From Sphingobacteriales bacterium (lineage in GTDB: Bacteria > Bacteroidota > Bacteroidia > Chitinophagales > Chitinophagaceae), in the NCBI GenBank assembly GCA_004144175.1, contig SEFT01000006.1, positions 62,001 to 126,000 of the forward strand: a stretch of 64,000 nucleotides of DNA, given 5' to 3'. The position numbers were made by a program, and so were the translations under genes. The notes beneath the pieces are model-generated. The model did no database searches. It saw only the letters and a list, made by a program, of their open reading frames with translations, and was not told the DNA's origin. Of this stretch, positions 12,378 through 59,806 are shown piece by piece. How positions within the stretch are numbered: the stretch's first letter is position 1; each line of letters begins with the position of its first letter.

Positions 12378-15300
12378 ATGGTGCGAAGAGTATACCTCCT
12401 AATATGTATGTTGCTGTACGCGCTCGGATGCTATGCACAGAGCACTGTTACGTATAAGGTCGACCAAAATAATGGTCTGCCATCATCGCGCATTTATGGT
12501 ATGATGACGGACAGGCACGGATATTTGTGGCTATCGACACCAAAAGGCGTCGTAAAGTATAACGGTTACGACTTTAAAGTCTTCGGGCAGGCACAGGGGT
12601 TACCATCGGATGATATTTGGTATACCTGTGAAGATAGCCTTGGGAGGATATGGATATCTACTATCTCCACAGAGATAGGATACATCCGCAATGATAAATA
12701 CACAGCCGCAATACATGCCGAAGAAGGACAGTTGTTTTATCCAAAGTCGATGCGGTCTTTTGGTGACGGAATAGCGTTCGTATCGCCCGTGACGCGTGAT
12801 GGAAGACCTGACTATCGCCTTTTTGCAGTGCAGGGCGATAAAAGTTTTTCTTTTATTCCTAAAGACTTTGGGATAACGCGCAGTTATATCAACGAAAAAA
12901 AGGAATACATAGCCGTAAGGAATGATACTGTCTACAAGATGTTGCCCGGCGTCGATCGTGTCAAAGTTACTCCTATACGCACATTTGACAAAGACGAAAT
13001 AAAGAGAACAATAGAAGCCAGATCGATACTGCTTTTTAAGCATTACTTCATTTCATATGAGTATAAAGGAAGGCGTGTATGGTTTCTGGACATAGAAGGC
13101 AAGGACAGACTCCAATACGTCGACACCTTTTTAGCACCCAATGATATGATCATGTATGCGTATGATATGGGTGACTATTTTTACATCTGCGGTGCGCATA
13201 ATATATATAAGCTGGATGGTACGCTGAAAGTAGTAAAAGTGATAGCAGCCAATAACCTGACTGGTAACCGCGGACTTGATAACAGTGCCCCGTTTTTGCT
13301 GATGGAGAATGATTTTTGGGGCGTGTGCCTGGGTACAGGCTCGGGGCTTTACCTTAATAAGCTTGCTGAAAATAAATTCGTAGCGTGGAACGGAGAGGGT
13401 TTGTATGATAGCAAGCCCGTAGGGTGTATCAATGACAGTGTCTGCTACAGGTGGAGCAACTCTCGAAACCTGCTGATAGAGAAAAAAGGAAACGCCCTGA
13501 AGTATTATAAGCTGGATGATGTAGTAGATGTAAAAAGAATAATACCCTACGATCGTAACCGGTCGCTGCTGGTGGACGAGCACAACGTTTACTGGATAAG
13601 AAACGACGATAAGAAGACGGTCAATTATTTTTCCAGCGAAATCTTTGCCAAGAAGAATTTTTACAGTCAGCGCCTAATCTACCCAATTAACGCAGTAGCC
13701 ATGAGTGATAGCTCGTTGTTCGGCGTATTCCGGGGAGACAAGCGGTTCAATAGATTTGCGGTCGGTGACAGCACCAGCCTTCCTGAGAGCATAATGAGGT
13801 ACAGGTATGATGATCTCGTCTATGATTCATTGAGAAAGGCCTTCTGGGTTTACAACAGATATAAAGTTACCTATTTCGATCCGGCGAAGAATAACATGTA
13901 CTCGGTAAATAAGAACATCCTGAGTATGCTGGGTATTGGGAATGTAGAAAACATAATAGTAGATAATAAGTATGGCAACCTGTTGTTGAAAGCCAATGAT
14001 GACGTATGGCTGGTAGATTTGGCAAACATGAGGTGCAGGAAGCTCTTTGGTGGATACCGGCTAGGTGACGCATACTTATACCTTTATAAAAGTACAGTCA
14101 CTGTCGTGGGCAGGTTTGGCGTATTGTTTAGCAGGGTAGAAGGATCGGGTATCGTGTCAAAACCGGTGCTGTTTGAAAATGTGAAATGTAGCAACTATAC
14201 AAATGTGCTTGATGCCGAGATCAGCGATAACAAAATATGGCTATCTACTGACAAAGGTTTTTACACCACCGACGTTCCTGACAGTGAAGTCTTCACGAAG
14301 GCTTACGGAAGTATTAAAGACCGCTACCGGTTTGTAATATCTTATGGCGACAGTACATATGGTAATCCTAAAGGTAGCCAGGTGCTCATTTCGCAGGACG
14401 ATATGCGTATAGGCCTTGATATCATCCACCCTATGGGGTATGGCAAAATAAAGTACCAGTATAAGATATCAGGTGAAAACACTGGTTGGGTACCGCTTAA
14501 TGGTACAGAATTGCCGCTGCATGGACTGCGCCATAGCCGGGAATATGCTATAAGCATCATCGCATACGATGATATATGGAGGAGCAGGCCCGCTACCATA
14601 AGGGTATATGTACAGCCATATTGGTGGCAGACTCAGGGTATGACCGCATCTTTTATCATATGCGGCACTTTATTGCTTGCTATCATAGGTATCGGCATCT
14701 CGTACGTCACGCAGCATATTGTAACGAAGAGAAATGCGAGAAAGAACTTCTTTATGGAACTAGAGCTGAAGGGAATCTATTCGCAGATCAATCCACATTT
14801 CATTTTCAATACGCTTGGTACATCGCTATATTATATTAAAATAAACAAGACAAAGGAAGCCTATAACCATATTACCAAATTCTCGAGGTTGCTGCGCACG
14901 TACATTAGCTCGTCGAGGAACAAGATGATAACGATTGGCGATGAAGTGCAAAATCTGAAGGACTATATAGAGCTGCAGCAAGACCGTTTTATCAATCGGT
15001 TCGACTACAATATCGAAGTGGAAGAAACCATCGGTGCATCCACCGAGAAAATACCCAGCCTGCTCATACAGCCGTTTGTGGAGAATGCCATTAATCATGG
15101 CCTACTGAATAAGAGCAGTAAAGGCAATCTTCTCATATCATTTACACAGCCGCACTATGGGCAGATAGTATGCAAGGTAGAAGACGATGGCGTGGGGCGA
15201 ATGGCCGCTAACCAGCTACGTGAGTCGAGCAGCATCCGGCACCAATCATTCGGAAATCAATTGATACAGGATCTCATTCATATTTATAATACATATGAGA

Positions 15301-15395
15301 ATGTAAAGATCCGCGTGGAGTACATTGACAAAGACCTGCCAGATACGGGAACGATCGTAAATATCTACATTAATAAACTGACAAAAAATACTTAA
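12378..15395 (+). CDS. Sensor histidine kinase, periplasmic beta-propeller plus LytS-type kinase
   Basis: 1005 residues. A signal peptide ends near CYAQ (residue 21). Residues about 25-660 contain two-component-regulator propeller repeats (for example DRHGYLWLSTPKGVVKYNGYDF and DSLGRIWIST). A Y_Y_Y-type beta-sandwich (YQYKISGENTGW) follows, then one membrane segment (about 755-780). The cytoplasmic kinase is the LytS/PF06580 type, with phospho-acceptor His807 in QINPHFIFNTL, an N-box (PFVENAINHG) and a G-box (DDGVGRM). It senses a periplasmic ligand and should phosphorylate the LytTR regulator that starts 5 bases after its stop. It lies downstream of the A2M/pbpC pair with its own likely promoter, so a link to wall stress is only suggested by position. 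Confidence 0.92.
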   Translation: MVRRVYLLICMLLYALGCYAQSTVTYKVDQNNGLPSSRIYGMMTDRHGYLWLSTPKGVVKYNGYDFKVFGQAQGLPSDDIWYTCEDSLGRIWISTISTEIGYIRNDKYTAAIHAEEGQLFYPKSMRSFGDGIAFVSPVTRDGRPDYRLFAVQGDKSFSFIPKDFGITRSYINEKKEYIAVRNDTVYKMLPGVDRVKVTPIRTFDKDEIKRTIEARSILLFKHYFISYEYKGRRVWFLDIEGKDRLQYVDTFLAPNDMIMYAYDMGDYFYICGAHNIYKLDGTLKVVKVIAANNLTGNRGLDNSAPFLLMENDFWGVCLGTGSGLYLNKLAENKFVAWNGEGLYDSKPVGCINDSVCYRWSNSRNLLIEKKGNALKYYKLDDVVDVKRIIPYDRNRSLLVDEHNVYWIRNDDKKTVNYFSSEIFAKKNFYSQRLIYPINAVAMSDSSLFGVFRGDKRFNRFAVGDSTSLPESIMRYRYDDLVYDSLRKAFWVYNRYKVTYFDPAKNNMYSVNKNILSMLGIGNVENIIVDNKYGNLLLKANDDVWLVDLANMRCRKLFGGYRLGDAYLYLYKSTVTVVGRFGVLFSRVEGSGIVSKPVLFENVKCSNYTNVLDAEISDNKIWLSTDKGFYTTDVPDSEVFTKAYGSIKDRYRFVISYGDSTYGNPKGSQVLISQDDMRIGLDIIHPMGYGKIKYQYKISGENTGWVPLNGTELPLHGLRHSREYAISIIAYDDIWRSRPATIRVYVQPYWWQTQGMTASFIICGTLLLAIIGIGISYVTQHIVTKRNARKNFFMELELKGIYSQINPHFIFNTLGTSLYYIKINKTKEAYNHITKFSRLLRTYISSSRNKMITIGDEVQNLKDYIELQQDRFINRFDYNIEVEETIGASTEKIPSLLIQPFVENAINHGLLNKSSKGNLLISFTQPHYGQIVCKVEDDGVGRMAANQLRESSSIRHQSFGNQLIQDLIHIYNTYENVKIRVEYIDKDLPDTGTIVNIYINKLTKNT

Positions 15396-15400
15396 AGACC

Positions 15401-16171
15401 ATGAAAGAAACCTACACCTGTATTTTAATAGATGACGAACCCAATGCGATCGGCCTTCTGGATGCTTCTCTGAAAGAACTGTTTAGCGAAATAGAAGTGA
15501 AGGCTACTTGCACCGATTGGGCATCGGCCATGAAGACATTGCGCAGCACGCCATTCGACATTGTGTTTCTGGATATATCGATGCCCGGTAAGAACGGGAT
15601 CGACCTGCTGAAACTAATGCCCACGCTGGAAAGCGAGGTGATATTTGTAACTGCTCACCATGAGTATGCGATTGAGGCATTTAAATTGTCAGCTTGCGGA
15701 TACATACTGAAGCCGATAGAAGATGCGGAGCTAGTGCAGGCAGTAAATAAAGCAATAGAACATGTAAATAATAAACGCCTCGCACAGCAACTTAAAAATG
15801 GAGCCGCCGCCGCATCACCTTCTATCATTGGCATACCCAATAATAAAGGCGTAGACTATGTAAAGGCAGAAGATATTTTCTATTTCGAGGCCGTAAATAA
15901 GTGTACTAAGGTGGTTTCCAGGCATGCAGAAATACTTAGTTCATACAATATCGGCAGGTTTAAAGAAGCGGTGGAAGGTTTGGGCTTTTTCCAGGTGCAT
16001 CGATCATTTATAGTCAATATGCACCATATAAGGCGATACGTATCATCTGGCGATATTGTGATGGATAATAGTAAAGAAATACCCGTATCGCGCTACGCGA
16101 AAGATGAATTCCTGAAACAATTTTCGATAGTGAGTAATGTGAGAATAAATATAGACGATATGAAGCGATAA
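15401..16171 (+). CDS. LytTR-family response regulator
   Basis: 256 residues. The REC domain (1-120) has the acidic pair in LIDDEP, phospho-acceptor Asp58 (VFLDISMPG) and the conserved Lys in YILKP. The LytTR DNA-binding domain (about 150-250) has the typical DIFYFEAVNKCTKV and FFQVHRSFIVN segments. It starts 5 bases after the propeller LytS-like kinase and is its expected partner. LytTR regulators bind pairs of 9-base direct repeats spaced by two helical turns. I found no convincing pair in front of this operon, so its targets are not visible here. It ends convergently with the ABC permease gene, only 33 bases away. Confidence 0.93.
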   Translation: MKETYTCILIDDEPNAIGLLDASLKELFSEIEVKATCTDWASAMKTLRSTPFDIVFLDISMPGKNGIDLLKLMPTLESEVIFVTAHHEYAIEAFKLSACGYILKPIEDAELVQAVNKAIEHVNNKRLAQQLKNGAAAASPSIIGIPNNKGVDYVKAEDIFYFEAVNKCTKVVSRHAEILSSYNIGRFKEAVEGLGFFQVHRSFIVNMHHIRRYVSSGDIVMDNSKEIPVSRYAKDEFLKQFSIVSNVRINIDDMKR

Positions 16172-16204: not shown

Positions 16205-18601
16205 CTATTCGTGCCGCAATACAGCCGCCGGACGTTTATAGTATGCAAATATCAGTTGAACGTATACTGTAACAGTCACCATTGCTATCATGGTAAAAGC
16301 AGATATCGCAAAGACGATCCAGCTAATGGAAATATGGTAAGCAAAGTTGCTGAGCCAGATTTTCATGATGAAGTAGGCTAGTGGCATAGCAAAGAGAAGA
16401 GAAATAAATACCAGTCTAATGAAGTCGCGCGAAAGCAGCAGAAGTATATCCATAAGCGTAGCGCCCGATATCTTGCGTATACTGATCTCTTTGGCACGCT
16501 GCCGCATAAAGAACGCTGTAAGCCCGATGAGCCCTAACACAGAGATGAATATACTAAGTCCAGTGAGCCAATTAAATAATACGCGTTGCTTTTCTTCTTT
16601 CTCGTATTGTTTATTGAAGGCCTCATCGAGCAGAGTATACTTGAATGGGCTACCCTGTCCCCATGCCTGGTAGGCATTTCCTACGTAGGCAATGGTCTGT
16701 TGTAATTTGCCAGCTTTTACTTTTATCGACAGGAAATTGGTGCGCCCCTCAGGACGACCCACAGTACCTAATGAAAGGAAGATCGGCTTGATGGTGTCGT
16801 GCAGAGAGGCCGCATGAAAGTTTTTTACCACACCTATAATATGACCGCGGCGCATACCATAGTAGTAGCCTGTTTCTACCTTTTTACCCACTACATTGCC
16901 ACCCAGCATACGGGCCGCCGATTCATTGGCTATAAGATAAGCCGAAGTGTCGAGCGTTGCGATCATTGAAGAATCAAAATCCCGGCCTTCTTTTAACGTA
17001 AGCCCCATTACGTCTACATAGTCGTAGTCTACAAATAGCGAATTAGTAAGGATGGGCACAAATCCTGTATCTGCTTCTATATTGATGTAGGTGTGATTGA
17101 GTTCACTCCCCGGTACATTATACGCCGCGGATACGCGGAGTATGTCGGGGTTCTTGCGCAGGCTGTCTTTAAACGCCTCCTTCTGCGCATTTACACGTTG
17201 GTCATTCAGGTCTACGAGCAACATTCGGTCTTTGTCAAAACCTAAATCGCGGTGCTTTACGAAGTTCAACTGCTGGGCTATCACAATGGTAGCAATCAGC
17301 ATGACGATAGAGATAGAGAATTGAGCGACCACCAGCACTTTGCGCAAAACAGGATTGCCTGAACCGATAGTAAGGCTGCCTTGTAACGACCTTGCCGGCT
17401 GAAAGGAGATAATGGAAAATGCAGGATACAAACCGCTGATGATACCAACTGCAACAGCCATAGCTAACACGCCTGCAATAAATGCAAGGCTGGCAAACGG
17501 TAGTATAATGATTTTGCCTGATAGCTTATTAAAGTAGGGTAGCGTCATTTCGGCCAACGAAAGCGCAAGTATCAGTGCAATGAGGCAAAGCACCACCGAC
17601 TCGGTAAGGAACTGAAGTATGAGCTGACGCCGTGTAGCTCCAAGTACTTTTCTGACCCCTACTTCGCGTGCGCGGCTGAATGAACGGGCCGTTGCGAGAT
17701 TGATGTAGTTGATACAGGCTACGACCAAAAGTATGATGGCAATGGCTGAAAAAATGTATAAGAGATTAATGTCTCCATTCTGTTCCAGCTCCTCCCACTT
17801 ATTGCCGCTGAGGTGTATGTTGGTAATAGGCTGCAGTCGGTCAAAATACAGATCCTGATCATCAGGCTGGTATTTCTGTCGAAAGAAACCATCGTACATT
17901 TTTTGCCATACTTCCGTGCGGAATCTAGCGGTATCATAGCCTTCATTCAGCAGGACATATGTCGGCTCCAGCACCTCTATACGGCGGTATTTTGCAATGA
18001 TAATGGCGGGATGAAAATGGGACGGTCTGTCGTCTGTTGCAAGAACGCCTGTTACCGTAAATGCCAACGGGCTGTCTTTTGTTTGCGTGTTATTGATGAA
18101 AACTTTTTTTCCGAGTGCAGATTGTTTGCCAAATATTTTACCGGCAATTTGCTCGGTTATCACCACCGACCTATCGTTGAGTAAAGCCTTTTGTGGTTTA
18201 CCTTCCGCAAAGCGGTAGGAGAATACGGAGAAGAAACCAGAGTCGGCATAGTAGGTGTCGCTTTCATAGGCGGATAGCTTACCTGCCGATAGTAGGCTGG
18301 GTATCTTATAGAAGCAAGTGGACGGGCCAATGTCCGGGAAGTCGCGCCGTAGCATACCGGGTATGCGCGAGTCTGCGGCAGCTGCCGGTTCGGCTACCCC
18401 ATGTGTAACCAGCGAATTTTCTACACGGTATATTCTGTCGGCATTCTTGAAGTGCGCATCGTAGTTCAATTCATCCTTTACCCAGAGTGCAATAAGTATA
18501 AATCCTGCCAGGCCAATAGCCAGCCCGATGATATTTAGCGCAGCATAAAAACGCTGATGCACGATATTGCGGAATGCTATGAGCAGGTAATTTTTAAACA
18601 T
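16205..18601 (-). CDS. ABC transporter permease, MacB/FtsX type with two FtsX units
   Basis: 798 residues from the ATG at 18601; a start at 18619 is also open but would overlap the ATPase gene more. The architecture is that of the 800-residue Bacteroidota permeases: an N-terminal membrane helix (FYAALNIIGLAIGL), a periplasmic MacB-like domain, three helices of the first FtsX unit (around residues 280-420), a second helix plus periplasmic domain, and three C-terminal helices. Coupling motifs REVGVRKVLGA and KEISIRKISGA occur in the two FtsX units. Its start overlaps the ATPase stop by 8 bases (ATGTTTAA), indicating coupled translation. The family drives mechanotransmission or export of peptides, lipoproteins or toxic compounds; the substrate is unknown. 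No membrane-fusion protein or TolC gene accompanies it in this window. Confidence 0.9.
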   Translation of the reverse strand: MFKNYLLIAFRNIVHQRFYAALNIIGLAIGLAGFILIALWVKDELNYDAHFKNADRIYRVENSLVTHGVAEPAAAADSRIPGMLRRDFPDIGPSTCFYKIPSLLSAGKLSAYESDTYYADSGFFSVFSYRFAEGKPQKALLNDRSVVITEQIAGKIFGKQSALGKKVFINNTQTKDSPLAFTVTGVLATDDRPSHFHPAIIIAKYRRIEVLEPTYVLLNEGYDTARFRTEVWQKMYDGFFRQKYQPDDQDLYFDRLQPITNIHLSGNKWEELEQNGDINLLYIFSAIAIILLVVACINYINLATARSFSRAREVGVRKVLGATRRQLILQFLTESVVLCLIALILALSLAEMTLPYFNKLSGKIIILPFASLAFIAGVLAMAVAVGIISGLYPAFSIISFQPARSLQGSLTIGSGNPVLRKVLVVAQFSISIVMLIATIVIAQQLNFVKHRDLGFDKDRMLLVDLNDQRVNAQKEAFKDSLRKNPDILRVSAAYNVPGSELNHTYINIEADTGFVPILTNSLFVDYDYVDVMGLTLKEGRDFDSSMIATLDTSAYLIANESAARMLGGNVVGKKVETGYYYGMRRGHIIGVVKNFHAASLHDTIKPIFLSLGTVGRPEGRTNFLSIKVKAGKLQQTIAYVGNAYQAWGQGSPFKYTLLDEAFNKQYEKEEKQRVLFNWLTGLSIFISVLGLIGLTAFFMRQRAKEISIRKISGATLMDILLLLSRDFIRLVFISLLFAMPLAYFIMKIWLSNFAYHISISWIVFAISAFTMIAMVTVTVYVQLIFAYYKRPAAVLRHE

Positions 18602-19283
18602 ATAGTAGCGGGGTAGCATGCTCGGTAAATACCTGGCCGTCCAGCATGCTTATGGTACGGCGACAGTATTGCGCATAGTGCATAGAGTGTGTTACCATCA
18701 CTACGGTGGTGCCTTGCTCGTTTAGCTGTAGCAGTTGGGCTATTACCTCGTCGCCACTTCGTGTATCCAGATTGCCTGTAGGTTCATCGGCCAGTATTAG
18801 CTTGGGACTATTGCTGATAGCCCGCGCCACTGCTATACGCTGCTGTTGACCACCGGATAGCTGCTGCGGATAATGATTCTTCCGGTGCGACATCTTCATC
18901 TGGTCGAGCAGGTGCAATACACGGTCTTTGCGTTCCGATTGCTTCATTTTGATGTAAAGAAGCGGCAGCTCTACATTCTCATAAATGGTCAGCTCATTTA
19001 TCAGGTTGAAGCTTTGAAATATGAACCCGATGTGCTGTTTGCGTAGCGCCGCACGCCGGCTCTCGCTAAAGTTGGCAGTGGCGATACCTTCGAAATAATA
19101 CTCACCGCCATCCAGCTTGTCGATAAGTCCAAGTATATTTAACAGTGAAGACTTGCCGCAGCCCGATGGCCCGGTAATGGCTACGAACTCACCAGCCTTG
19201 ATATCGATGCTTACCTCCGCCAGTGCGACGGTCTCGATGCCTTCGGCTTTGTAGGTCTTTCGCAGCTGTGTTGTTTTGATCAT
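18594..19283 (-). CDS. ABC transporter ATP-binding protein (MacB/LolD type)
   Basis: 229 residues from ATG 19283 (MIKTTQLRKTY), the usual beginning of this family. The frame also has an ATG at 19301, but the inferred sigma-54 start site at about 19307 would leave only a 6-base leader for it. Walker A is GPSGCGKSS (residues 38-46), the signature is LSGGQQQRIAVARA, and Walker B is LILADEPTGNLD, followed by the H-loop His in MVTHS. All residues for ATP hydrolysis are present. It energises the permease encoded immediately downstream. The pair is divergent from the sigma-54 activator at 19490 and probably controlled by it through the palindrome at 19410-19425. Confidence 0.93.
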   Translation of the reverse strand: MIKTTQLRKTYKAEGIETVALAEVSIDIKAGEFVAITGPSGCGKSSLLNILGLIDKLDGGEYYFEGIATANFSESRRAALRKQHIGFIFQSFNLINELTIYENVELPLLYIKMKQSERKDRVLHLLDQMKMSHRKNHYPQQLSGGQQQRIAVARAISNSPKLILADEPTGNLDTRSGDEVIAQLLQLNEQGTTVVMVTHSMHYAQYCRRTISMLDGQVFTEHATPLLYV

Positions 19284-19318
19284 GTTGTTATCGTTGGCCA
19301 TGCGGCAAAGTCCTTGTA

Positions 19319-19333
19319 GCGAATAATGTGCCA
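19319..19333 (-). promoter_or_regulatory. Sigma-54 (-24/-12) promoter of the ABC operon
   Basis: On the minus strand the sequence reads TGGCACATTATTCGC, with GG and GC separated by the exact 10 bases of the sigma-54 consensus TGGCACr-N4-TTGC (one mismatch in TTGC). The predicted start site is about 19307, 24 bases before the preferred ATG. An NtrC-family activator gene lies next door. Confidence 0.65.
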
Positions 19334-19409
19334 GTTAAGGCGCAGTGTTGCCCTGTCAAGTTATTAATTATTCCCGTCTTCCTATACTGTACGCATACGG
19401 ACAAGAAAC

Positions 19410-19425
19410 TGTCCGATAACGGACA
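19410..19425. promoter_or_regulatory. Activator-binding palindrome TGTCCG-N4-CGGACA
   Basis: TGTCCG (19410-19415), ATAA, CGGACA (19420-19425), extended to 12-bp perfect arms at 19404-19415 and 19420-19431. It lies between the divergent ABC and sigma-54 activator genes, centred about 110 bases upstream of the inferred ABC start site. It is followed on the plus strand by a T run, so it could also fold as a terminator, but there is no upstream plus-strand gene to terminate. Near-identical palindromes lie in front of 22344. Confidence 0.65.
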
Positions 19426-19461
19426 GTTTCTGTGGTTTTTTTAATTGCGTTTACAAGCATA

Positions 19462-19469
19462 TATCTTTG
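19462..19469 (+). promoter_or_regulatory. -7 box of the sigma-54 activator gene
   Basis: TATCTTTG is an exact TAnnTTTG match, with 20 bases between it and the ATG at 19490. The -33 region is a T-rich run without a clear TTTG. The palindrome at 19410-19425 lies just upstream, so autoregulation is possible. Confidence 0.45.
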
Positions 19470-19489
19470 GCATATACAGGCGCTTTTGC

Positions 19490-20863
19490 ATGAAGCATAC
19501 AGAGGGAAATATATTGATAGTGGACGATAATGTCGACGTGCTCTTCTCGGCCAAGATGCTGTTGAAAGACCATTTCAAAACTATTCATACCCTCAACGAC
19601 CCCGAACGGATACCTGAGTTTCTGGATACAAAAAGCTGCGATGTAGTGATGCTGGACATGAACTACTCCGGCAGTGATACATCGGGTAAAGAAGGGCTTT
19701 ACTGGCTGCGAAAGCTCATGTCTTACGACCATCCGCCGCAGGTGGTTATGATAACTGCCTTTGCCACTATCGAAAATGCGATACAGGCGCTAAAGCAAGG
19801 CGCAACAGACTTTGTAATAAAACCATGGGAAAATGAAAAGCTGGTAGCAACAATGCTGTCAGCATACCAGCTCAGTAAGTCGCGGCAGGAGGTAAGGCAG
19901 CTGCGCATCACGCAAGACCACTTGCAAAAGGACATCGATAAACAGTTTGGCGAATTCGTGGGCCAGTCAAAGGCTATGAAGGAGCTGTACGGCATCATAT
20001 CGAAAGTAGCCAAGACCGATGCCAATGTCATTATACTGGGAGAGAATGGTACGGGCAAAGAGCTGGTAGCAAGATCCATTCACCGGCTGTCGCTACGTGC
20101 GCATAAGCCCATGATAAGCGTAGACCTTGGATCGATCAGCGAAACGCTTTTTGAAAGTGAGCTTTTCGGGCATGTGAAGGGCGCCTTTACCGACGCACGT
20201 GAAGACCGCGCAGGCAGGTTTGAGATAGCTTCGGGCAGTACGTTATTTTTCGATGAGATAGGCAATGTGCCACTCACGCTACAGGCTAAACTGCTCACTG
20301 CTCTGCAGAATAGAGTGGTAACACGCCTTGGCTCTAACAAGCAGGTGCCGGTGGATATAAGGCTCATCTGCGCCACCAATGTATCGATATACGATAAGGT
20401 AATGGAAGGTGCTTTCCGCGAAGACCTGCTATACCGCATCAAAACCATAGAGCTGCATCTACCACCATTGCGCGAGCGCGAAGGTGATGTCGAATTGCTA
20501 ACCTGCCACTTCCTGGAAATGTACGGGCGAAAGTACCGCAAGCAGGTAATGAAGCTGGGAGCGGATACGCTGCGAAAGCTGGAACGCTATAGCTGGCCGG
20601 GCAATGTGCGTGAACTACAGCATGCAGTAGAGCGCGCGGTAATACTAAGTGACCACCGCATACTGAAGCCGGAAGATTTTTACCTGCACGAACCTGTAAA
20701 AAAGCACTCTGTAAAAGATGCGCTTACCCTGGATGAGCTGGAAGAAGCCACTATAAAAAAAGCACTGGATAAGAATACCTATAACATCAGCAAGACAGCT
20801 GCCGAACTGGGGCTAAGCAGGGCAGCCTTATACCGGAAAATACAGAAGTATGATATTAAGTAG
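19490..20863 (+). CDS. NtrC-family sigma-54-dependent response regulator
   Basis: 457 residues. ATG 19490 was chosen; the frame opens at a TTG (19445) that lies upstream of the -7 box. REC domain 1-125 has the acidic pair in IVDDN and phospho-acceptor Asp56 (VVMLDMNYSG). The AAA+ domain has Walker A GENGTGKE (about 184-191), Walker B LFFDEIGN and a sigma-54 contact loop reading GAFTDA (231-236) rather than the classical GAFTGA. The C-terminal Fis-type helix-turn-helix is NISKTAAELGLSRAALYRKI. It should activate sigma-54 promoters when phosphorylated. The kinase gene overlaps its end by 14 bases. Likely targets are the divergent ABC operon and the operon starting at 22344, which share its presumed binding palindrome. 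Confidence 0.94.
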   Translation: MKHTEGNILIVDDNVDVLFSAKMLLKDHFKTIHTLNDPERIPEFLDTKSCDVVMLDMNYSGSDTSGKEGLYWLRKLMSYDHPPQVVMITAFATIENAIQALKQGATDFVIKPWENEKLVATMLSAYQLSKSRQEVRQLRITQDHLQKDIDKQFGEFVGQSKAMKELYGIISKVAKTDANVIILGENGTGKELVARSIHRLSLRAHKPMISVDLGSISETLFESELFGHVKGAFTDAREDRAGRFEIASGSTLFFDEIGNVPLTLQAKLLTALQNRVVTRLGSNKQVPVDIRLICATNVSIYDKVMEGAFREDLLYRIKTIELHLPPLREREGDVELLTCHFLEMYGRKYRKQVMKLGADTLRKLERYSWPGNVRELQHAVERAVILSDHRILKPEDFYLHEPVKKHSVKDALTLDELEEATIKKALDKNTYNISKTAAELGLSRAALYRKIQKYDIK

Positions 20864-22181
20864 CTTCCGTATACAGGTACTGTTGCGCATTGCCCTGCTG
20901 CTGGTACTCATCGGCATGCTGGCTGCCGTTCTGTTTCGTACCGGTTGGGTAATGACGCCCGTTATACTGGGAGTGGCACTTGTTATATGCGTTGCTGAGC
21001 TGATACATTATGTAGAAAAGACTAACCGGGATTTTTCTGATTTTCTGTTGTCAATAAAAGGTTCTGATTTCTCTAAATTTAGTGAGGAAGATAGCCGGGG
21101 CAGTTCCTTTTCGCGTTTCCGGGCGGCATCCAATACCATCATAGATGCTTTTCATGATGTGCGTATCGATAAGGAAGCGCATTACACTTTCCTGAAAGCT
21201 GTAGTGGAGCAAGTGGGTACCGCCATCATTGCCTTTAAAGATGATGGCACGATAACGCTGATGAATGATGCAGCGAAAAAAATGATCGGCATCTCTCTAC
21301 TAGGTAGCATAAAGCAACTGCAATATGCCGACCCGGCTCTATACCGATATCTTACTGCCGGCAAGCACGAAGTACTGGAGCTAAATGTGCAGGGACAACA
21401 GTTGAAGATACTGGCAAGGTCTACAGTATTCACCATCAACGGCGTTGCCAATACACTTATACTGATACAGAACGTGACAACCGAAATAGAGCGTACGGAA
21501 ACAGAAGCCTGGGAGCAGCTATTACATGTACTGACGCATGAGATCATGAACTCTATCACACCTATATCATCGTTGTCAGCTACAATTAAAAGCAAGGTGG
21601 ATGAATGGCAGCTGCATAAACAAATAGACGACGAAACGATCGAAGATATGTCATACGGGCTGCAGGTAATTGGCAATCGCAGTACCGGACTAATGAACTT
21701 TGTGCATCACTATAAGAGCCTTATTAATCTGCCTGCTCCCTTTCTAGCGCCGGTATTGATCGCTAGCCTGTTTGAGCGTCTGCAGGTGTTGACGGAACAT
21801 CGTATGCGCGAACAGGGAATAGCCTTGCATGTTCATTGTCCTGCTGACGCAGTGAAGCAAATGGATGAGAACCTCGTAGAGCAGGTGCTGATTAATCTAT
21901 TGAATAATGCCTGTGACGCATTGGCTGGCCAACAGGATGCCATTATAGAACTTGTAGCAGAACAGCAGGGTGATATACTGGTTACGCGGGTAGGCGACAA
22001 CGGCCCGGGTATTGAGCGAGATCTGTTAAGCAAAATTTTCATTCCCTTTTATACCACTAAGAAACTGGGAACAGGCATCGGCCTTAGTCTCTCGCGTCAG
22101 ATCATGGTACTACATCATGGCACTATCAATGTGCAAAGTGCGCCTGGTAAAGGCACTGTCTTTACATTGATCTTCCCTTAA
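20850..22181 (+). CDS. NtrB-like sensor histidine kinase
   Basis: 443 residues. Two membrane helices near the N-terminus (about 8-28 and 33-50) with almost no periplasmic loop are followed by a short linker, a PAS domain (about 110-205: GTAIIAFKDDGTITLMNDAA) and the kinase core. The phospho-acceptor is His230 in VLTHEIMNSI, the N-box is NLLNNACDAL, and DNGPGI and GTGIGLSL form the ATP lid. With so little outside the membrane it probably senses through the membrane, the PAS domain or the ABC proteins. The gene overlaps the activator gene by 14 bases, so the two form one two-component pair. A nearby MacB-like ABC transporter is a common partner for such systems in Bacteroidota. Confidence 0.92.
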   Translation: MILSSFRIQVLLRIALLLVLIGMLAAVLFRTGWVMTPVILGVALVICVAELIHYVEKTNRDFSDFLLSIKGSDFSKFSEEDSRGSSFSRFRAASNTIIDAFHDVRIDKEAHYTFLKAVVEQVGTAIIAFKDDGTITLMNDAAKKMIGISLLGSIKQLQYADPALYRYLTAGKHEVLELNVQGQQLKILARSTVFTINGVANTLILIQNVTTEIERTETEAWEQLLHVLTHEIMNSITPISSLSATIKSKVDEWQLHKQIDDETIEDMSYGLQVIGNRSTGLMNFVHHYKSLINLPAPFLAPVLIASLFERLQVLTEHRMREQGIALHVHCPADAVKQMDENLVEQVLINLLNNACDALAGQQDAIIELVAEQQGDILVTRVGDNGPGIERDLLSKIFIPFYTTKKLGTGIGLSLSRQIMVLHHGTINVQSAPGKGTVFTLIFP

Positions 22182-22214
22182 TTCAAATGCGTTTCCATCT
22201 CAATAGACATCGCA

Positions 22215-22250
22215 TGTTCGGATGCGAACATTTTTGTTCGTAAGCGGACA
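22215..22250. promoter_or_regulatory. Two tandem activator-binding palindromes
   Basis: TGTTCG-GATG-CGAACA (22215-22230) and TGTTCG-TAAG-CGGACA (22235-22250) share the TGTyCG-N4-CGrACA pattern of the site at 19410-19425. Their centres are 20 bases apart, so both face one side of the helix. They lie about 110 and 90 bases upstream of the inferred sigma-54 start site near 22332, a usual position for NtrC-type enhancer sites. Confidence 0.65.
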
Positions 22251-22305
22251 ATTGGCCTATGCGAAAATTTAATCCAACACATTGATAATCACTGTTTTAT
22301 AAGAT

Positions 22306-22320
22306 TGGCACGCCAATAGA
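22306..22320 (+). promoter_or_regulatory. Sigma-54 promoter candidate of the 22344 operon
   Basis: TGGCACG (22306-22312) matches the -24 element perfectly; after 4 bases the -12 element reads TAGA, with GA where GC is usual. Predicted start about 22332, 12 bases before the ATG. The -12 mismatch lowers confidence, but the upstream palindromes support it. Confidence 0.55.
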
Positions 22321-22343
22321 TATACCGAAGGCAAACTAACATT

Positions 22344-22646
22344 ATGAAATGCCTGAGATATATGCTAAGCACTACTGCATTGCTGATGACATCCGCTGCT
22401 GCCGCACAAGATAATGTGCACAAGACACTTGACAAATGGCGATACCCCGAGCCTGCCAATCAGTGTACCATCAAATACAGTGAAGAAGACTATTATCTGT
22501 TCATCGCCGATTCGGTGAAACCCAGGCTTGACTCCTATAAACCAGTCAAAAGAGACCAGAGCACATTAGGCAACCGGCATGAACCTCCCGAGGAGCAACA
22601 CTCATCAGACAAGGCTGCCACGTCTTTTTACCTAAAAGAATACTGA
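22344..22646 (+). CDS. Small secreted protein of unknown function
   Basis: 100 residues. A signal peptide (MKCLRYMLSTTALLMTSAAAAQ) is followed by about 78 hydrophilic residues rich in Lys, Glu, Pro and Ser, with two short aromatic patches (EEDYYLFIAD, SFYLKEY). I do not recognise a family. It is the first gene after the sigma-54 promoter candidate and the paired palindromes, and lies 31 bases before the outer-membrane barrel gene, so it is probably co-expressed with the barrel. There is no lipobox Cys after the signal, so it should be free in the periplasm or exported. Its short length and disordered look fit a ligand, chaperone or barrel-associated periplasmic factor (inference). Confidence 0.65.
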   Translation: MKCLRYMLSTTALLMTSAAAAQDNVHKTLDKWRYPEPANQCTIKYSEEDYYLFIADSVKPRLDSYKPVKRDQSTLGNRHEPPEEQHSSDKAATSFYLKEY

Positions 22647-22677: not shown

Positions 22678-25065
22678 ATGAAACCGACACTATTACTCAC
22701 GATCCTGCTGGCGATCGTTACACACAGGGCCCTTGCGCAAAATCAATACATCATACAGGGCAAGATAAATGGTGCAGATAATGCAGCCATAGCAAACGCA
22801 TTAGTAAGCCTTATACAACAGGAAGACAGCGCCACCGTAACATCAGTGGTAGCTGATAAAGATGGGGGCTATAAAATATCTGCTGCTGCCATTGCGGATA
22901 TGCTGTTAAAAATAGATGCGACAGGTTATACCGTGTGGTATTCCAGCCTTAATAGTAATGCACAACAACAGGTAAATGCTGTGCTGCAAAAGAACAAGAT
23001 GTTATCGGAGGTTGCTATCGTGGCCCGCAAGCCCGTGTATGAGCAAAAGCCGGATAGGACGGTATTTAATGTAGAGAATAGCGTGACTGCTACCGGCAGC
23101 GATGCCTGGAACGCGCTGCGTAAGACACCCGGTATACTTATCATGGGCAACTCGGTAACTATATCGGGTAAGGGTGCTGTTGGGGTGATGATAAACGGGC
23201 GTATGCAGCAGGTAGCAGGCGAGGATCTGGCGCAACTGCTCCGCTCTATACCATCTGACAACTTATCGAAGATAGAAGTGATAACTACCCCGCCTGCCAG
23301 GTATGACGCCGAAGGGAATATGGGACTCATCAACATTGTGACTAAGAAGAACCTGAAGCAGGGCTTTAAGGGTAGCGTGACCGCAAGCTATAAGCGCAAC
23401 GCGCTTAGCAGCCCCTCGCTGAGTACCACAATGAGCTATGGCAGTGAAAAGCTTAACGTAACTGTAAACGCTGCCACCAGCCAGTTTTGCTATCAATATG
23501 TGAACCGCACTAATACCTACTTCCCCGGTCAGGTATGGGAGCAGGAACTGATATCGGGCTATACGAATAGAAGCGCAAGATTCCAGTTGGCTGCAGACTA
23601 CAAGCTGACTAAGAACATGACCATCGGCATTGTAGCAGGTGAGGCTATGAATACGTTGGATTTTCCGGATTCTTCCCGCATCAACATTTATGATGAACAG
23701 CGTAACCTGGATTCTACTATACGTATAAAGGGGTGGTCGCTCGATAAGTTCAAGGGCAAGCATAGCCTGAACCTGAACTACGAATGGCGCTTTGACGACA
23801 AGGGAAAGAAGCTGAATATAGATGCAGACTATTATGGCCATAAGGGAACCCGCCTGCGCGAGTTTGATATGATCAGCTATCAGAGTGGCGGAGACGTAAT
23901 TGCAGGCGTATCGAACCGCATGAGCGGCAGCCCTTCGGTAGATATACGCTCTATAAAGGCCGACCTGGAATTGCCTTTCAAATTTGCAAAGCTTACTACA
24001 GGTATAAAAGCATCGGAAGTAAACAATGTGGCCGATAATATACACGAGCTGCGCATCAACGAAGTATACACCCGCGACCTTACCCGTACCAATACTTTTG
24101 AATACAATGAGCAGATACAGGCAGCATATATAACAGCGCAGCGCAAGATAGGCAAGGTAGATATACAGGCAGGTGTGCGCGCCGAGCATACCCATACAGA
24201 GGGTTACTCGCCAACGCTCAGCCGGACTGATATTAACGACTATACGCAGTTCTTTCCATCGGGGTATGTACAATATAGCCTGAGCGATAACCATAGCTTC
24301 AATGCGAACTACTCACGCCGCATCAACAGGCCCGCATACAGCTTTCTTAATCCATTCCGGTTGTACTATTCGGCTAACTCTTATGCAGAGGGCAATCCGT
24401 ACCTGCGTCCATCTTACCGTAATGGCGTAGAGCTGGGGTATGTGTACAAGAGCAAGTACTTCTTCAAAGCATTTGCCAGTCAGACCAACAACTACTGGGA
24501 CCGTATCATAGAGACCGATGCGGCGAGCGGCACCACCCGGTACACACGTGCCAATGTGGGCAGGGGACAATGGTCGGGGCTGGGTGCCAGCACCATGCTC
24601 AATCCTTACAAATGGTGGGAATTCCGTGTGGGTATCAACCTGGAGCATAATGACTTTAAGCTAAGTCACTTTGGCCGCACCGACCGTTTGAACAGCACCT
24701 TTCCCTGGGCCGATATGAACCATTCCTTTGTGCTGGATAAGAAAAAAACACTGACAGCCGAAGTATATGCTTACTACTACGCCCAGCGGCAAAAGGACTA
24801 TAAGATATGGGGCGAAATGTCGACCGTGAACATCGGCATACGCAAGACCTTCATGAATAACAATATGATACTGGCGCTAAGGTTTGATGACATTTTCGCA
24901 AAAGCCTACTGGTTCCAGACCAATATTGTGAACGGCACTACCGAGTACTCCTACGATAACGAACAGGGCGTGGGCCTCTCGCTCACCTGGAAGTTTGGAA
25001 ACAAGAATATAAAAGGCAAACGTGATAAAGCTGTAGTGGAAGAGATACAACGCGCCAGCCAATAA
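22678..25065 (+). CDS. Outer-membrane beta-barrel protein, TonB-receptor-like (OMP_b-brl_3 type)
   Basis: 795 residues. A signal peptide ends near ALAQ. Residues about 24-100 are a carboxypeptidase-regulatory-like beta domain (QGKINGADNAAIANALVSL). A plug-like domain follows (LSEVAIVARKPVYEQKPDRT, TGSDAWNALRKTPGI, SKIEVITTPPARYDAEGNMG), then a long barrel of alternating strands with repeated Tyr/Asn/Arg patterns. This matches the OMP_b-brl_3 family of Bacteroidota. Whether it needs TonB is unclear, because no clear TonB box is visible. It likely moves or binds a small ligand, or works as a signalling barrel. The upstream gene is 31 bases away and the downstream kinase gene begins 16 bases after the stop, so the three may form one operon under the sigma-54 system. 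Confidence 0.9.
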   Translation: MKPTLLLTILLAIVTHRALAQNQYIIQGKINGADNAAIANALVSLIQQEDSATVTSVVADKDGGYKISAAAIADMLLKIDATGYTVWYSSLNSNAQQQVNAVLQKNKMLSEVAIVARKPVYEQKPDRTVFNVENSVTATGSDAWNALRKTPGILIMGNSVTISGKGAVGVMINGRMQQVAGEDLAQLLRSIPSDNLSKIEVITTPPARYDAEGNMGLINIVTKKNLKQGFKGSVTASYKRNALSSPSLSTTMSYGSEKLNVTVNAATSQFCYQYVNRTNTYFPGQVWEQELISGYTNRSARFQLAADYKLTKNMTIGIVAGEAMNTLDFPDSSRINIYDEQRNLDSTIRIKGWSLDKFKGKHSLNLNYEWRFDDKGKKLNIDADYYGHKGTRLREFDMISYQSGGDVIAGVSNRMSGSPSVDIRSIKADLELPFKFAKLTTGIKASEVNNVADNIHELRINEVYTRDLTRTNTFEYNEQIQAAYITAQRKIGKVDIQAGVRAEHTHTEGYSPTLSRTDINDYTQFFPSGYVQYSLSDNHSFNANYSRRINRPAYSFLNPFRLYYSANSYAEGNPYLRPSYRNGVELGYVYKSKYFFKAFASQTNNYWDRIIETDAASGTTRYTRANVGRGQWSGLGASTMLNPYKWWEFRVGINLEHNDFKLSHFGRTDRLNSTFPWADMNHSFVLDKKKTLTAEVYAYYYAQRQKDYKIWGEMSTVNIGIRKTFMNNNMILALRFDDIFAKAYWFQTNIVNGTTEYSYDNEQGVGLSLTWKFGNKNIKGKRDKAVVEEIQRASQ

Positions 25066-25081
25066 GGAAGACCTGCCTATC

Positions 25082-28000
25082 ATGAATTGGGTATTTATAT
25101 GTTCATTTACTTTTCGCGCTGCATCTTTCGGGGCGGCGCTTTTATTTGGTGGGATGGCGCCATTCGCCATATATTTCAGAGTATGGCCTGCAATTTTGTA
25201 CTTTCGTTCAAATAGTCGTAAGATCCACTTGTCGTTAAAGAAGCTGAATAGACCCAAGGGCTGGCCTTTACTGGTATGCTTCCTGTTGCTGCATATCTGC
25301 CTGCAATCTTATGGTCGCTCTGCTTCTTACAATATTACATACCGGCTGCTTTCGCGCGAAAACGGACTTGCTAATCGCGTAGCCTCATCAGGCTTGCAGG
25401 ATAGCCGGGGATTTATATGGGTAGGTACCAGGGATGGCCTCAACCGCTACGATGGCTATTCTTTTGAATTGCTTACCCGCGAGAAGAATGGACTACAGTC
25501 GAATAATGTGGCCGACCTCTGCGAAGACCAGGATAAGAAGTTATGGATACTCTATGGCGTCAGCAACACCAATATATTGTCGGGTGGCAAGATCGATATA
25601 CTTGACCTTTATACCCATAAGGTAGTACCCTTCGAAACTTACTTCGGTAAGTCTGCGCTCTTTTCACCAAAGCAGGTCATCGCTATTTCAAACAATGCAC
25701 AGCGCGACCTTTTTATCCATACTAGTGACAGCTTTGTATATGCATATAATGGCAAGACGTTCACGAAGCTCAATGCGCGCGAACAGGTCGATGAAAAGGT
25801 CCCCGAGTACTTTTTTGTGAACACAGCCACTTCAAAGGGACTGTGGATACGATATGATTATTTTGTAAGTAAGGATAGCCGTCATAAGAAAGTGCCTGAG
25901 CATAGAGATGGATACAGGCCTATGTATTTTAAAGGGGAGGATAGCCTTATTGTAATGTACCTCAACAAAGGTAAGGTGACGGAATATGGACAGCAGCAGA
26001 CATATAGCGTGTCGCCGGGCGGTATTTATCCCTATACGCCGCCGTTCGATGAGGCGGAAAAGAAACTCTTCTTCGATATCTGCAAAAAGGACTATTACTT
26101 TCTCATAGGTGACGACCCTACGGGTTATACTTTGATACAAAAGGATGGTACGGATCTGTACCTGATGCGCAATGAGCAAATGATACATTTGCTGAACATC
26201 GCGGACCTGAAGGGTATTGCCGCATTGCAGATAACCGATGTATTCAGCGATAACGGAGGAAAGATATGGGCATGTACCAATGCCGGCCTTTTGATATTTG
26301 ACGTTGCAGAGAACCGCTTCACGCATTATCTCAACTCCAGGGAATATAAGCTGGATGGCAATTACACCAACTACCAGGTGCGCGGCATCAGCACCGATAG
26401 GCAGGGGAATATATATGCAAGCACCATTACAGGAGCATATAAGATTACCGATCATGATACGGATGATATTGCGCTAAAAACACTCACCAGGGAATCGTAC
26501 AATACACCTATGGTGCGTGATGGGGATAAGTTCTATTATGGCCAAACACAGCTGTACGAGTATAATAGCACGACCGATGAGATCCGCCATGTATTAGGTA
26601 AGGATACCCATTATGTATGGAGTATACACAAGCTTGGCGAAGACAAATGGTGGGTGAGTGAGCATGACTGTGTGTACCTGGTAAAAGGTAAACAGTATCA
26701 TAATATATATAATGAAGATGGCAGGAGAATAGAGCATGGGTTTTGGATACACCAGTTCTTTACTGACAATGAGGGTAATAAGTGGATGGCTGGCGCGCAA
26801 GGCCTTTATCGAATGAAGAATGACAGTGTAGTAGCCGAGCACTGGAGCGCTACAACCATGAATAAAGCTAGAAAGCTACCTTCTGAGGATATACATTATG
26901 TGCATGTAGATGCGGAAGGCGATTTCTGGATGGCTACGAACGGCGACGGCCTTTACCGCTGGCTGCGAAAGACAAACAGCTTTCAGCACAAGACCATAGC
27001 CGATGGGCTTAGCAGCAATACGCTGTATGGAATATTGCAAGATGAGCAAGGCTACCTGTGGATGAGCAGCGACCACGGCTTGATGCGTATGAATCCGCGT
27101 GATTTTTCGGTGAAGACTTATACCGTAAAGGATGGCCTCACCGATAACGAGTTTAACCGGCTGAGCTACCACCGTGCCGATGATGGGCGAATGATGTTTG
27201 GAACGATTGATGGTATTAATGCGTTCTATCCTTCCGCCTTTTATGAGGACGGTACCAAACGTTTTGACGCGCCTTTACAAATAACATCTTTCCTGCAGTT
27301 CCTGGCTTCGTCCGGCAGATTGGAAGACCTCACCGCCGCACTGGCTATAAATAATGAGATCGTACTGCATCCGGGAGATAACTTCTTTACACTGGAGTTT
27401 GCCCTGCTCGACTATGATGAAGGCAAGCATAAGTATGCCTACATGGTAGAGGGTATGGACGACAGCTGGCACTACCTGGATGTAAATACGCTTAGCCTGA
27501 GCCGCCTGCCTTATGGTAACTATACACTAAGGATAAAGGGGCAGAACAGCGCCGGCGAATGGTCAACCCGGGAGATAAAACTGCCGTTATTGGTGCAAAT
27601 GCCTTTTTACAGGCAGGCATGGTTTGTAGTCGCCTGCATCTTGCTGGCGTTGCTGGGTATGGCGATATTTGTACGCATCAGGATATGGCAGTATCGCAAC
27701 CGTAATGAGCAGCTCGAAGAAGTAGTGGCCTTGCGTACCGTAGAGCTAAAGGCATCGCTGGTGCAAAAGGAAGTACTCTTGAAAGAGATACACCACCGGG
27801 TAAAGAACAACCTGCAGGTGATCAGTAGCCTGCTGCACCTGCAAAGCCGCAGCCTGGGCGATAGCGAAGCCCGCGCTGCACTACAGGAGAGCCAGAACCG
27901 GGTATTGAGCATTGCGCTGGTACACCAAAAACTGTATCAAAATGAAGGGCTGGATGCAATTGAGTTCTCTTCGTTCGCCAATGAATTGTTCATACAGATA

Positions 28001-28396
28001 GATGCCGTGTTTGCAAAACAGGAAAAGCGTGTCAACTTTATTAATCTTTTACCGATAACCAGCGTAGTAGTAGATACGGCCGTGCCGCTGGGCCTTGTAT
28101 TGAATGAGTTGATCACCAATTCTTTTAAGTATGCTTTCCACGATACTGCCAATCCGCAAATAGTACTGAGCCTGCAAAAGACCGATGCAGGCTATGAATT
28201 TGAGTATAAAGATAACGGGCCCGGATTGCCACCTAATATAGACATAGCCAAAGCAAAGTCGCTGGGCCTCCGCCTCATTACACGGCTTACGAAACAGCTG
28301 AATGGTACAGTCCGCTATCAGTACGACGATGGCGGCGTTTTCACTATTGTCGTTCCTTCTTATATGATGAAGCATCAAGCGGAGGTTAATAACTAG
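25082..28396 (+). CDS. Sensor histidine kinase, propeller plus HisKA_2 kinase
   Basis: 1104 residues from ATG 25082. The real start may be a TTG at 25229, because the first 50 residues look unlike a signal while WPLLVCFLLLHICLQSYG soon after does. Propeller repeats follow (DSRGFIWVGTRDGLNRYDGY, DAEGDFWMATNGDGLYRW, DEQGYLWMSS), then a Y_Y_Y-type domain (KYAYMVEGMDDSWHYLD), one membrane helix (about 840-862) and a HisKA_2 kinase with the HHR motif (His904-His905) in EIHHRVKNNLQV. The N-box is NELITNSFKYAF and the lid contains DNGPGLP. It should sense a periplasmic ligand and phosphorylate the LytTR regulator 73 bases downstream. It lies 16 bases after the barrel gene, suggesting that barrel and kinase respond to one signal. 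Confidence 0.9.
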   Translation: MNWVFICSFTFRAASFGAALLFGGMAPFAIYFRVWPAILYFRSNSRKIHLSLKKLNRPKGWPLLVCFLLLHICLQSYGRSASYNITYRLLSRENGLANRVASSGLQDSRGFIWVGTRDGLNRYDGYSFELLTREKNGLQSNNVADLCEDQDKKLWILYGVSNTNILSGGKIDILDLYTHKVVPFETYFGKSALFSPKQVIAISNNAQRDLFIHTSDSFVYAYNGKTFTKLNAREQVDEKVPEYFFVNTATSKGLWIRYDYFVSKDSRHKKVPEHRDGYRPMYFKGEDSLIVMYLNKGKVTEYGQQQTYSVSPGGIYPYTPPFDEAEKKLFFDICKKDYYFLIGDDPTGYTLIQKDGTDLYLMRNEQMIHLLNIADLKGIAALQITDVFSDNGGKIWACTNAGLLIFDVAENRFTHYLNSREYKLDGNYTNYQVRGISTDRQGNIYASTITGAYKITDHDTDDIALKTLTRESYNTPMVRDGDKFYYGQTQLYEYNSTTDEIRHVLGKDTHYVWSIHKLGEDKWWVSEHDCVYLVKGKQYHNIYNEDGRRIEHGFWIHQFFTDNEGNKWMAGAQGLYRMKNDSVVAEHWSATTMNKARKLPSEDIHYVHVDAEGDFWMATNGDGLYRWLRKTNSFQHKTIADGLSSNTLYGILQDEQGYLWMSSDHGLMRMNPRDFSVKTYTVKDGLTDNEFNRLSYHRADDGRMMFGTIDGINAFYPSAFYEDGTKRFDAPLQITSFLQFLASSGRLEDLTAALAINNEIVLHPGDNFFTLEFALLDYDEGKHKYAYMVEGMDDSWHYLDVNTLSLSRLPYGNYTLRIKGQNSAGEWSTREIKLPLLVQMPFYRQAWFVVACILLALLGMAIFVRIRIWQYRNRNEQLEEVVALRTVELKASLVQKEVLLKEIHHRVKNNLQVISSLLHLQSRSLGDSEARAALQESQNRVLSIALVHQKLYQNEGLDAIEFSSFANELFIQIDAVFAKQEKRVNFINLLPITSVVVDTAVPLGLVLNELITNSFKYAFHDTANPQIVLSLQKTDAGYEFEYKDNGPGLPPNIDIAKAKSLGLRLITRLTKQLNGTVRYQYDDGGVFTIVVPSYMMKHQAEVNN

Positions 28397-28469
28397 TTAA
28401 GTACTAATCGTTTGTGCCTGTTTAAGCTGGTTTTTATGTTACTTTATATTCCGACCCATTACAATACGG

Positions 28470-59435: not shown

Positions 59436-59806
59436 TTGGCCAGGTTGCGCCCATTCGCGCGTACGATAATATAAGGTTTTTACACAGATTAAAATTTTTA
59501 TTCTTTTTTTGATCGGTTCGGCAGGTGTTCGTCCCGCGTATTAATATTCAGTTATTACAATGGAAACAAGTTACTTATACTGATTTTTGTAGTGGATAAC
59601 TTGTTAGGTTTACGCATCATTGTATATCGCACAAAATATATTTTGATGACAAGTGCTTGACAATATTAAAAATTGTCCTAACCTTTGTTTCGCAGCCTTA
59701 GCCATATATATCACCATCAGTCACGGACGTTTTCTTCTCTTAGCTTTCTTTCAGGCGCTGCGCATTGTTCTTTCTAAGCCTGACATTTCTTTGTTCACCA
59801 TCAAAT
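59436..59806. other. Intergenic region with promoter of the giant PKD protein
   Basis: This 371-base gap holds the promoter candidate described at 59657-59687. An open frame from 59653 to 59928 crosses the next gene start in another frame; it was rejected because it lacks a signal and overlaps a clear one. No hairpin terminator is obvious after the DUF4838 gene. Confidence 0.4.
59657..59687 (+). promoter_or_regulatory. Promoter candidate with embedded inverted repeat
   Basis: TTGACA at 59657-59662 stands 19 bases before TAACCTTTG (59679-59687), a TAnnTTTG-like box with one extra base. The spacer contains GACAAT-N7-ATTGTC (59659-59664 and 59672-59677), a possible operator that would block polymerase. 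The leader to the ATG at 59807 would be about 115 bases. Confidence 0.4.

Follow-up and report, generated by a model that had tools for sequence, protein, structure and literature searches.

Paired palindromes at fixed distances from sigma-54 promoters suggest an NtrC-type exporter regulon in Bacteroidota

We analysed a 64,000-nucleotide stretch (the window; contig SEFT01000006.1 of assembly GCA_004144175.1) from a member of the Chitinophagaceae, in which short palindromes precede two predicted sigma-54 promoters, one reading into an operon for a MacB-like ATP-binding cassette (ABC) exporter and the other into genes for a small secreted-type peptide and an outer-membrane barrel. We are highly confident that the palindromes serve as tandem enhancer sites for the NtrC-type response regulator whose gene lies between these promoters, and that they define a dedicated sigma-54 regulon for exporter and envelope functions, which in this genome is reduced to the two promoters. 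That the regulator itself occupies the operators is the interpretation that best suits their position and distribution. The sites keep a rigid distance to the -24 promoter element, enclose with it an element resembling a binding site for integration host factor (IHF), co-occur with the regulator across genomes and precede one recurring class of target genes.

At the exporter promoter, the outer operator copy (TGTCCGataaCGGACA, 19410-19425, strandless like the other three) is centred at about -110.5 from the inferred transcription start and sits within an inverted repeat with 12-bp arms (19404-19431). The inner copy (TGTACGcataCGGACA, 19388-19403) carries one mismatch, is centred at about -88.5, and has the TGG of the minus strand 62 bp away. 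At the peptide/barrel promoter, the two copies are TGTTCGgatgCGAACA (22215-22230, centred at about -109.5) and TGTTCGtaagCGGACA (22235-22250, at about -89.5); a 16-mer identical to the former is found in the exporter promoter of a relative (L089/L129). The site centres are 22 bp apart on the exporter side and 20 bp apart on the peptide/barrel side, and their distances from the TGG of the -24 element are 84 and 62 bp in the first case and 83 and 63 bp in the second. A first-pass annotation of this DNA had reported three exact copies of TGTYCG-N4-CGRACA, with outer centres 110.5 and 109.5 bases from the inferred starts and a tandem pair, 20 bases apart, before 22344; all three lie where it put them, and recomputing the distances returned the same values. 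The single site that it recognised on the exporter side (19410-19425) is genuine, but it overlooked the one-mismatch copy at 19388-19403, because of which the exporter side has a tandem pair as well.

In the whole genome of 4,344,298 bases, the exact pattern occurs in three places, all at this locus, and its reversed form in one; the random genome-wide frequency that the first-pass annotation had named as the outcome speaking against an operator was not what we found. A looser pattern, TGTNCG-N4-CGNACA, has ten places, six of them in the window. Its two extra places in the window (28975 and 63065) fall within open frames, with no TGGCA found 50-134 bp away, and no TGGCAY was found at 20-150 bp from its four places beyond the window; all six are probably chance matches. 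Three further places of variant sites in the host genome likewise have no TGGCAY 20-150 bp away. One site, at 41169, has a TGGCAT at 57.5 bp, but it was dropped as a promoter since it lies inside a 3958-aa open frame.

The consensus sigma-54 promoter is TGGCAC-N5-TTGC. The -24/-12 element of the exporter operon (TGGCACATTATTCGC, 19319-19333, minus strand, inferred start near 19307) fits it fairly well and keeps its position in relatives. The -24 element before the peptide and barrel genes (TGGCACGCCAATAGA, 22306-22320, plus strand, inferred start near 22332) is followed by a weak -12 part. Between operators and -24 element, near -50, lies a sequence of the form YAANNNNTTGATW, which we take to correspond to the IHF consensus and which mostly starts 31 bp ahead of the TGG. 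The exporter promoter matches eight of its nine specified bases (TAATAACTTGACA, 19354-19366, minus strand) and the peptide/barrel promoter all nine (CAACACATTGATA, 22275-22287, plus strand). We assembled 56 promoters from relatives and the window (57 initially, from which 41169 was taken out). At least eight of the nine bases are matched in 28 of them, compared with 0-3 at six slid positions, and at least seven in 42, compared with 0-4 at five slides and 15 at slide +35. A tandem partner site with at most two mismatches accompanies the operator in 45 of the 56, as against none of 112 control positions.

Distances between operator and -24 element were scored over all sites from relatives and the window. 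Downstream of 166 site-orientations, 74 TGGCAY are found at 10-250 bp, and 54 of these 74 fall at 55-65 or 80-85 bp. When the asymmetric sites described below are taken together with the symmetric ones that share their loci, those of locus L004 and those of the window, 132 distinct sites result, and 62 of them have a TGGCAY within the windows of the two distance peaks. Sliding these windows by -35, 40, 60, 100, 120 and 140 bp leaves 2, 2, 1, 2, 2 and 9 sites; a slide of 20 still leaves 28, since the shifted windows then run into the second peak. The enhancer geometry that the first-pass annotation ascribed to an NtrC-family activator is borne out, as far as sequence can tell, by these rigid distances and by the co-occurrence with the regulator described next.

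A search of 118 other genomes found orthologues of the regulator (47-53% identity) in 27; 26 of these share the window's family, and the last belongs to a different family within the order. We compared 26 of the 27 loci; G044, whose contig is only 3 kb, was left out here and from the regulator-bearing set, while family genome G053 (best match 42% identity) was placed in neither the regulator-bearing nor the regulator-lacking set. An operator stands between the regulator and an exporter operon of opposite orientation in 21 of the 26 loci, each of which also has an exporter-strand TGGCAY at 59.5-62.5 or 80.5-84.5 bp from the site; the other outcome that the first-pass annotation had named as refuting, a lack of conservation at orthologous operons, did not occur either. 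Locus L126 (G020) has a degenerate tandem pair, with two mismatches in each copy, at 83 and 62 bp; L125, L141 and L142 have no exporter homologue beside the regulator in the fetched stretch, and L130 is truncated where its contig stops. The layout recurs in Shiella aurantiaca (L004), the nearest named cultured relative to carry the locus, with a distance of 81 bp. Most relatives have an asymmetric site, TGTATCR-N4-CGNACA. The exact symmetric form stands at the regulator locus in L129, L139 and L144 and also precedes permeases elsewhere; the operator as first described is therefore real, but is one variant of a broader site. As a marker of the window's own regulator subclade the symmetric form was not clear-cut, exact sites preceding permeases in many other genomes.

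A tree of the regulators joins the orthologues in a 29-row clade (support 100/99) and groups the window with three others in a 4-row clade (95/85); only these two clades were used, the tree having long branches and 14 open forks. One of the host genome's three other sigma-54 activators gave a usable row. At two loci, L148 (G041) and L129 (G018), the divergent region holds tandem operators that have a TGGCAY on either strand, about 60 and 81-82 bp away, which suggests that exporter and regulator share a single pair, that is, autoregulation.

In relatives the regulon is not confined to the regulator locus. The asymmetric pattern TGTNCG-N4-YGATACA has 118 matches, against 21 for its reversed control, in 27 regulator-bearing genomes, the host genome included; the DNA around all 118, one of which is in the window, was examined. 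Where the geometry is present (67 site-directions), 57 have one of four kinds of gene as their first downstream homologue: 28 an adaptor, 17 a permease, 8 an ATPase (the window accounts for two of these) and 4 the regulator. In two more it is the window's small protein. Even among 70 sites without TGGCAY in place, 40 are near the start of an exporter or regulator gene. Conversely, 44 genomes of the family in which the regulator has no close orthologue gave 25 matches against 35 for the reversed control, and none of the 25 is near an exporter or regulator gene. The exact palindrome behaves similarly. It has 49 places in the 27 regulator-bearing genomes, of which three are the window's, four belong to loci with asymmetric sites and two (G023) were left out; of the 40 examined, 25 precede an exporter or regulator gene, 20 have the geometry, and 30 show either. 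In genus-mates none of 8 exact palindromes stands before such genes. The scan of host and related genomes that the first-pass annotation had put forward as a check yields sites ahead of exporter genes at recurring distances from the -24 element, and its small local regulon, which holds for the host genome, proves larger and dispersed in relatives.

A composite pattern, the operator followed by TGGCAY after 50-77 bp, was scanned in 395 genomes of the phylum and gave 42 places in 21 genomes, compared with one for the reversed pattern. Thirty of the 42 were looked at, and 27 adjoin exporter or regulator homologues; eight of the 30 came from genomes already examined, and of the other 22, 19 adjoin such homologues. 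The three misses belong to families f38 and f44. Since three other families of the class (f23, f25 and f29) are represented among the 19, the system extends beyond the window's family.

Some genes behind relatives' sites are not exporter genes, and part of them may be there by chance: DUF4097 proteins, a lumazine-binding-like protein and a penicillinase-repressor-like gene. The last (Penicillinase_R 2e-27) has an operator about 107 bp ahead of it (L200, G041:C3) without the TGGCAY geometry, which could reflect either a link to cell-wall stress or coincidence.

Several observations weigh against the regulon as we describe it. Eight of the 67 site-directions with geometry have no adaptor, permease, ATPase or regulator homologue downstream; one of the eight, L150, precedes a TolC-like gene, and others precede genes for DUF4097 or other secreted-type proteins. 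Among the 132 sites, 30 have neither the geometry nor a nearby exporter or regulator gene. By count the exact palindrome is hardly enriched, with 42 occurrences against 32 for the reversed pattern in 24 other same-family regulator-bearing genomes besides G020; these counts alone are not convincing, whereas its association with genes was. No operator site was found in a Bacteroidales metagenome-assembled genome (L005) whose regulator forms the deepest branch of the clade. Fourteen same-genus genomes searched contained more distant paralogues and no close orthologue of the regulator, whose neighbours in the tree belong to other genera and families; together these facts hint at transfer or loss of the regulator. 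The 100-aa protein has no homologue among the 118 other genomes searched, nor has the barrel one in the fetched orthologous regulator loci, and the targets of the second promoter therefore look peculiar to the host genome. That promoter also has a poor -12 half. Across the 56 promoters, TGGCAY-N4-TTG is found in 20 and the N5 form in 2, the TTG lying mostly one base closer to the -24 element than in the consensus. This N4 spacing, seen in relatives and in the window, is possibly a trait of sigma-54 in this phylum.

The palindromes could be read as RNA hairpins, that is, intrinsic terminators or attenuators rather than operators. At 19404-19431 the repeat gives a stem of 12 bp with GTGG and a T run behind it, and at 22214-22231, just past the kinase gene, a stem of 7 bp with four T behind it. 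Both are terminator-like by score; the 3.15-kb stretch holds seven such structures, where shuffling gives a mean of 3.3 (sd 1.9). Yet 19404 does not come just after the end of any plus-strand gene, the sites precede genes on either strand, and the two halves of the relatives' TGTATCR-N4-CGNACA pair less well, as read from the letters, while its distance to TGGCAY is kept. What relatives conserve is position and not symmetry, and for this reason we set the hairpin explanation aside as highly improbable; the 22214 hairpin may still act secondarily as a terminator for the kinase operon.

It might also be that a different DNA-binding protein, whether a repressor or a second activator, uses the sites as its operators and that the NtrC-type regulator acts elsewhere. 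The pairing of operator and regulator was made from sequence, and the genome encodes four proteins with strong Sigma54_activat matches, three of them other than the regulator of this locus. The sites, however, track the presence of this regulator, flank its gene and form tandem pairs as far from the -24 element as enhancers would be, which makes a foreign owner very improbable. Finally, the host genome taken by itself would fit a purely local pair of promoters of no wider meaning: nowhere else do the searched patterns show the geometry, 41169 excepted, and the four other MacB_PCD loci are free of operator sites within 1.5-kb flanks. The dispersed regulons of relatives, which share site, geometry and target class, already contradict this for those genomes, and we consider it highly improbable as well. 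Tandem enhancer sites of the NtrC-type regulator remain our reading of the palindromes.

The gene content of the locus agrees, by domain matches, with the targets proposed by the first-pass annotation (MacB-like exporter, secreted-type peptide, outer-membrane barrel). On the minus strand lie a duplicated MacB_PCD/FtsX permease of 804 aa (16205-18619) and a MacB/LolD-like exporter ATPase (18594-19301) whose start codon is probably at 19283 (MIKTT...). On the plus strand follows the response regulator, the presumed operator binder (19490-20863), with a receiver (Response_reg 2e-17), a sigma-54 AAA+ domain (Sigma54_activat 1.7e-63) and a Fis-type helix-turn-helix (HTH_8 7e-12). Its sigma-54 loop reads GAFTDA, as in 27 of 29 regulators (window included), with GSFTDA and GSFTGA in one each. 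Asp at this loop position is listed for the validated activator FlgR (PMC3162934), on which ground we accept GAFTDA as a functional variant of GAFTGA. A histidine kinase (20850-22181, plus strand) has PAS and HATPase domains behind a hydrophobic N-terminus that we read as two transmembrane helices with a very short loop. A hydrophobic stretch of about 50 residues is present, by hydropathy only, in this kinase and in 15 of 16 relatives (for the sixteenth, L126, a wrong short frame was taken); it reads as two helices with few residues between, and many rows were not split by the threshold. The second promoter would serve an operon that begins with the 100-aa protein, which has a signal-peptide-like N-terminus (22344-22646, plus strand), and continues with the outer-membrane beta-barrel protein (22678-25065, plus strand; OMP_b-brl_3 and CarboxypepD_reg domains).

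Two Sigma54_DBD genes are present in the host genome (domain hits G000:C66:164423-164896, L341, and G000:C47:13910-14380, L342), and one of the matches lies about 0.6 kb from the domain match of another sigma-54 activator (C47:12850-13350). The locus is flanked by two more signalling pairs: 12378-16171 encodes a propeller-type histidine kinase and a LytTR-type regulator, and 25082-29201 a large kinase-like frame followed by a frame that weakly matches this LytTR-type regulator (tblastn). Farther off, a very large open frame (59765-64000) with PKD-like repeats, recognised by eye, perhaps encodes a secreted adhesin and runs off the window.

We propose the following course of events. The membrane-embedded partner kinase, apparently with almost no periplasmic loop, would phosphorylate the regulator, dimers of which would occupy the sites at about -110 and -88, two helical turns apart. 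On the paired sites the dimers may oligomerise and assemble the AAA+ ring, and a bend at the IHF/HU-like site near -50 would deliver the regulator to sigma-54 RNA polymerase, so that the promoters open. The divergent MacB/FtsX-type exporter operon and, in the host genome, the operon for the small secreted protein and the barrel would thereby be switched on. In relatives, the regulator family is predicted to control scattered MacB-type permeases, ATPases, HlyD-like adaptors and one TolC-like gene, and perhaps some secreted envelope proteins too. Phosphorylation by the kinase, binding of IHF or HU, and activation rather than repression are what we infer from this arrangement. As to the signal, the target class leads us to guess at envelope or antimicrobial-peptide stress, or at exporter activity.

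NtrC-type regulons such as NtrBC, ZraSR and AtoSC share with this locus a regulator of receiver, AAA+ and Fis domains, a partner kinase, paired palindromes and a -24/-12 promoter, and nif-type promoters have an IHF-type site between enhancer and promoter, like the putative one in the window. The locus departs from them in its operator sequence, in GAFTDA instead of GAFTGA, in its MacB/FtsX-type exporter targets and in a kinase with seemingly hardly any periplasmic loop. Whereas NtrC enhancers tolerate changes of position, and textbook sigma-54 enhancers are movable, enhancer positions here are nearly fixed over several families. In the Bce-type modules of Gram-positive bacteria, a kinase with two transmembrane helices and a short loop stands beside an FtsX-superfamily ABC exporter under the control of its regulator. 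The present locus has a kinase that may, going by hydropathy only, have two helices and a short loop, beside an FtsX-superfamily exporter that its regulator would control. Its response regulator, however, is of the NtrC type and would work with sigma-54 instead of being OmpR-like, for which reason we do not class the locus as a Bce module. Its permeases, moreover, are of the MacB type, in relatives usually accompanied by an HlyD-like adaptor. Signalling by way of the transporter is a feature of Bce modules; nothing seen at this locus points to it.

A 2025 survey with -24/-12 matrices found sigma-54 promoters enriched before COG0577 ABC-type antimicrobial-peptide permeases, with Bacteroidia among the classes concerned, and speaks of the first evidence for this link (PMC12316311). 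In its accessible sections no regulator, operator or enhancer geometry is named for the permease genes; the present locus offers candidates for all three. In Flavobacterium psychrophilum, sigma-54 (SM4) promoters with mapped starts serve envelope-stress and exported-protein targets, for which a role of distinct activators is put forward as a possibility (PMC9723704). Those promoters, as far as the accessible text goes, stand mainly before genes for chaperones, proteases and exported or outer-membrane proteins, and no exporter-regulator operator is described there. No description of this operator or regulator came to light in the accessible parts of the literature searched, which lay outside preprints and most subscription journals.

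In conclusion, a candidate activator clade, operator, promoter layout and set of targets can now be named for the sigma-54 permease link that was predicted in Bacteroidia (PMC12316311), and with these candidates the regulon becomes readable from sequence. Its near-invariant enhancer positions are unusual against the textbook picture. Tentatively, and as a possibility that we rate below even chances, the system may be an undescribed envelope-defence regulon spanning several families of the phylum, in which an activator clade and an intramembrane-type kinase would govern the expanded and scattered MacB-type permeases through a rigid three-part promoter (operator pair at -110/-88, IHF-like bend at -50 and -24 element). 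Such a system would be a Gram-negative, sigma-54-dependent counterpart of the modules for Bce detoxification, and its exporters may themselves signal the stress.

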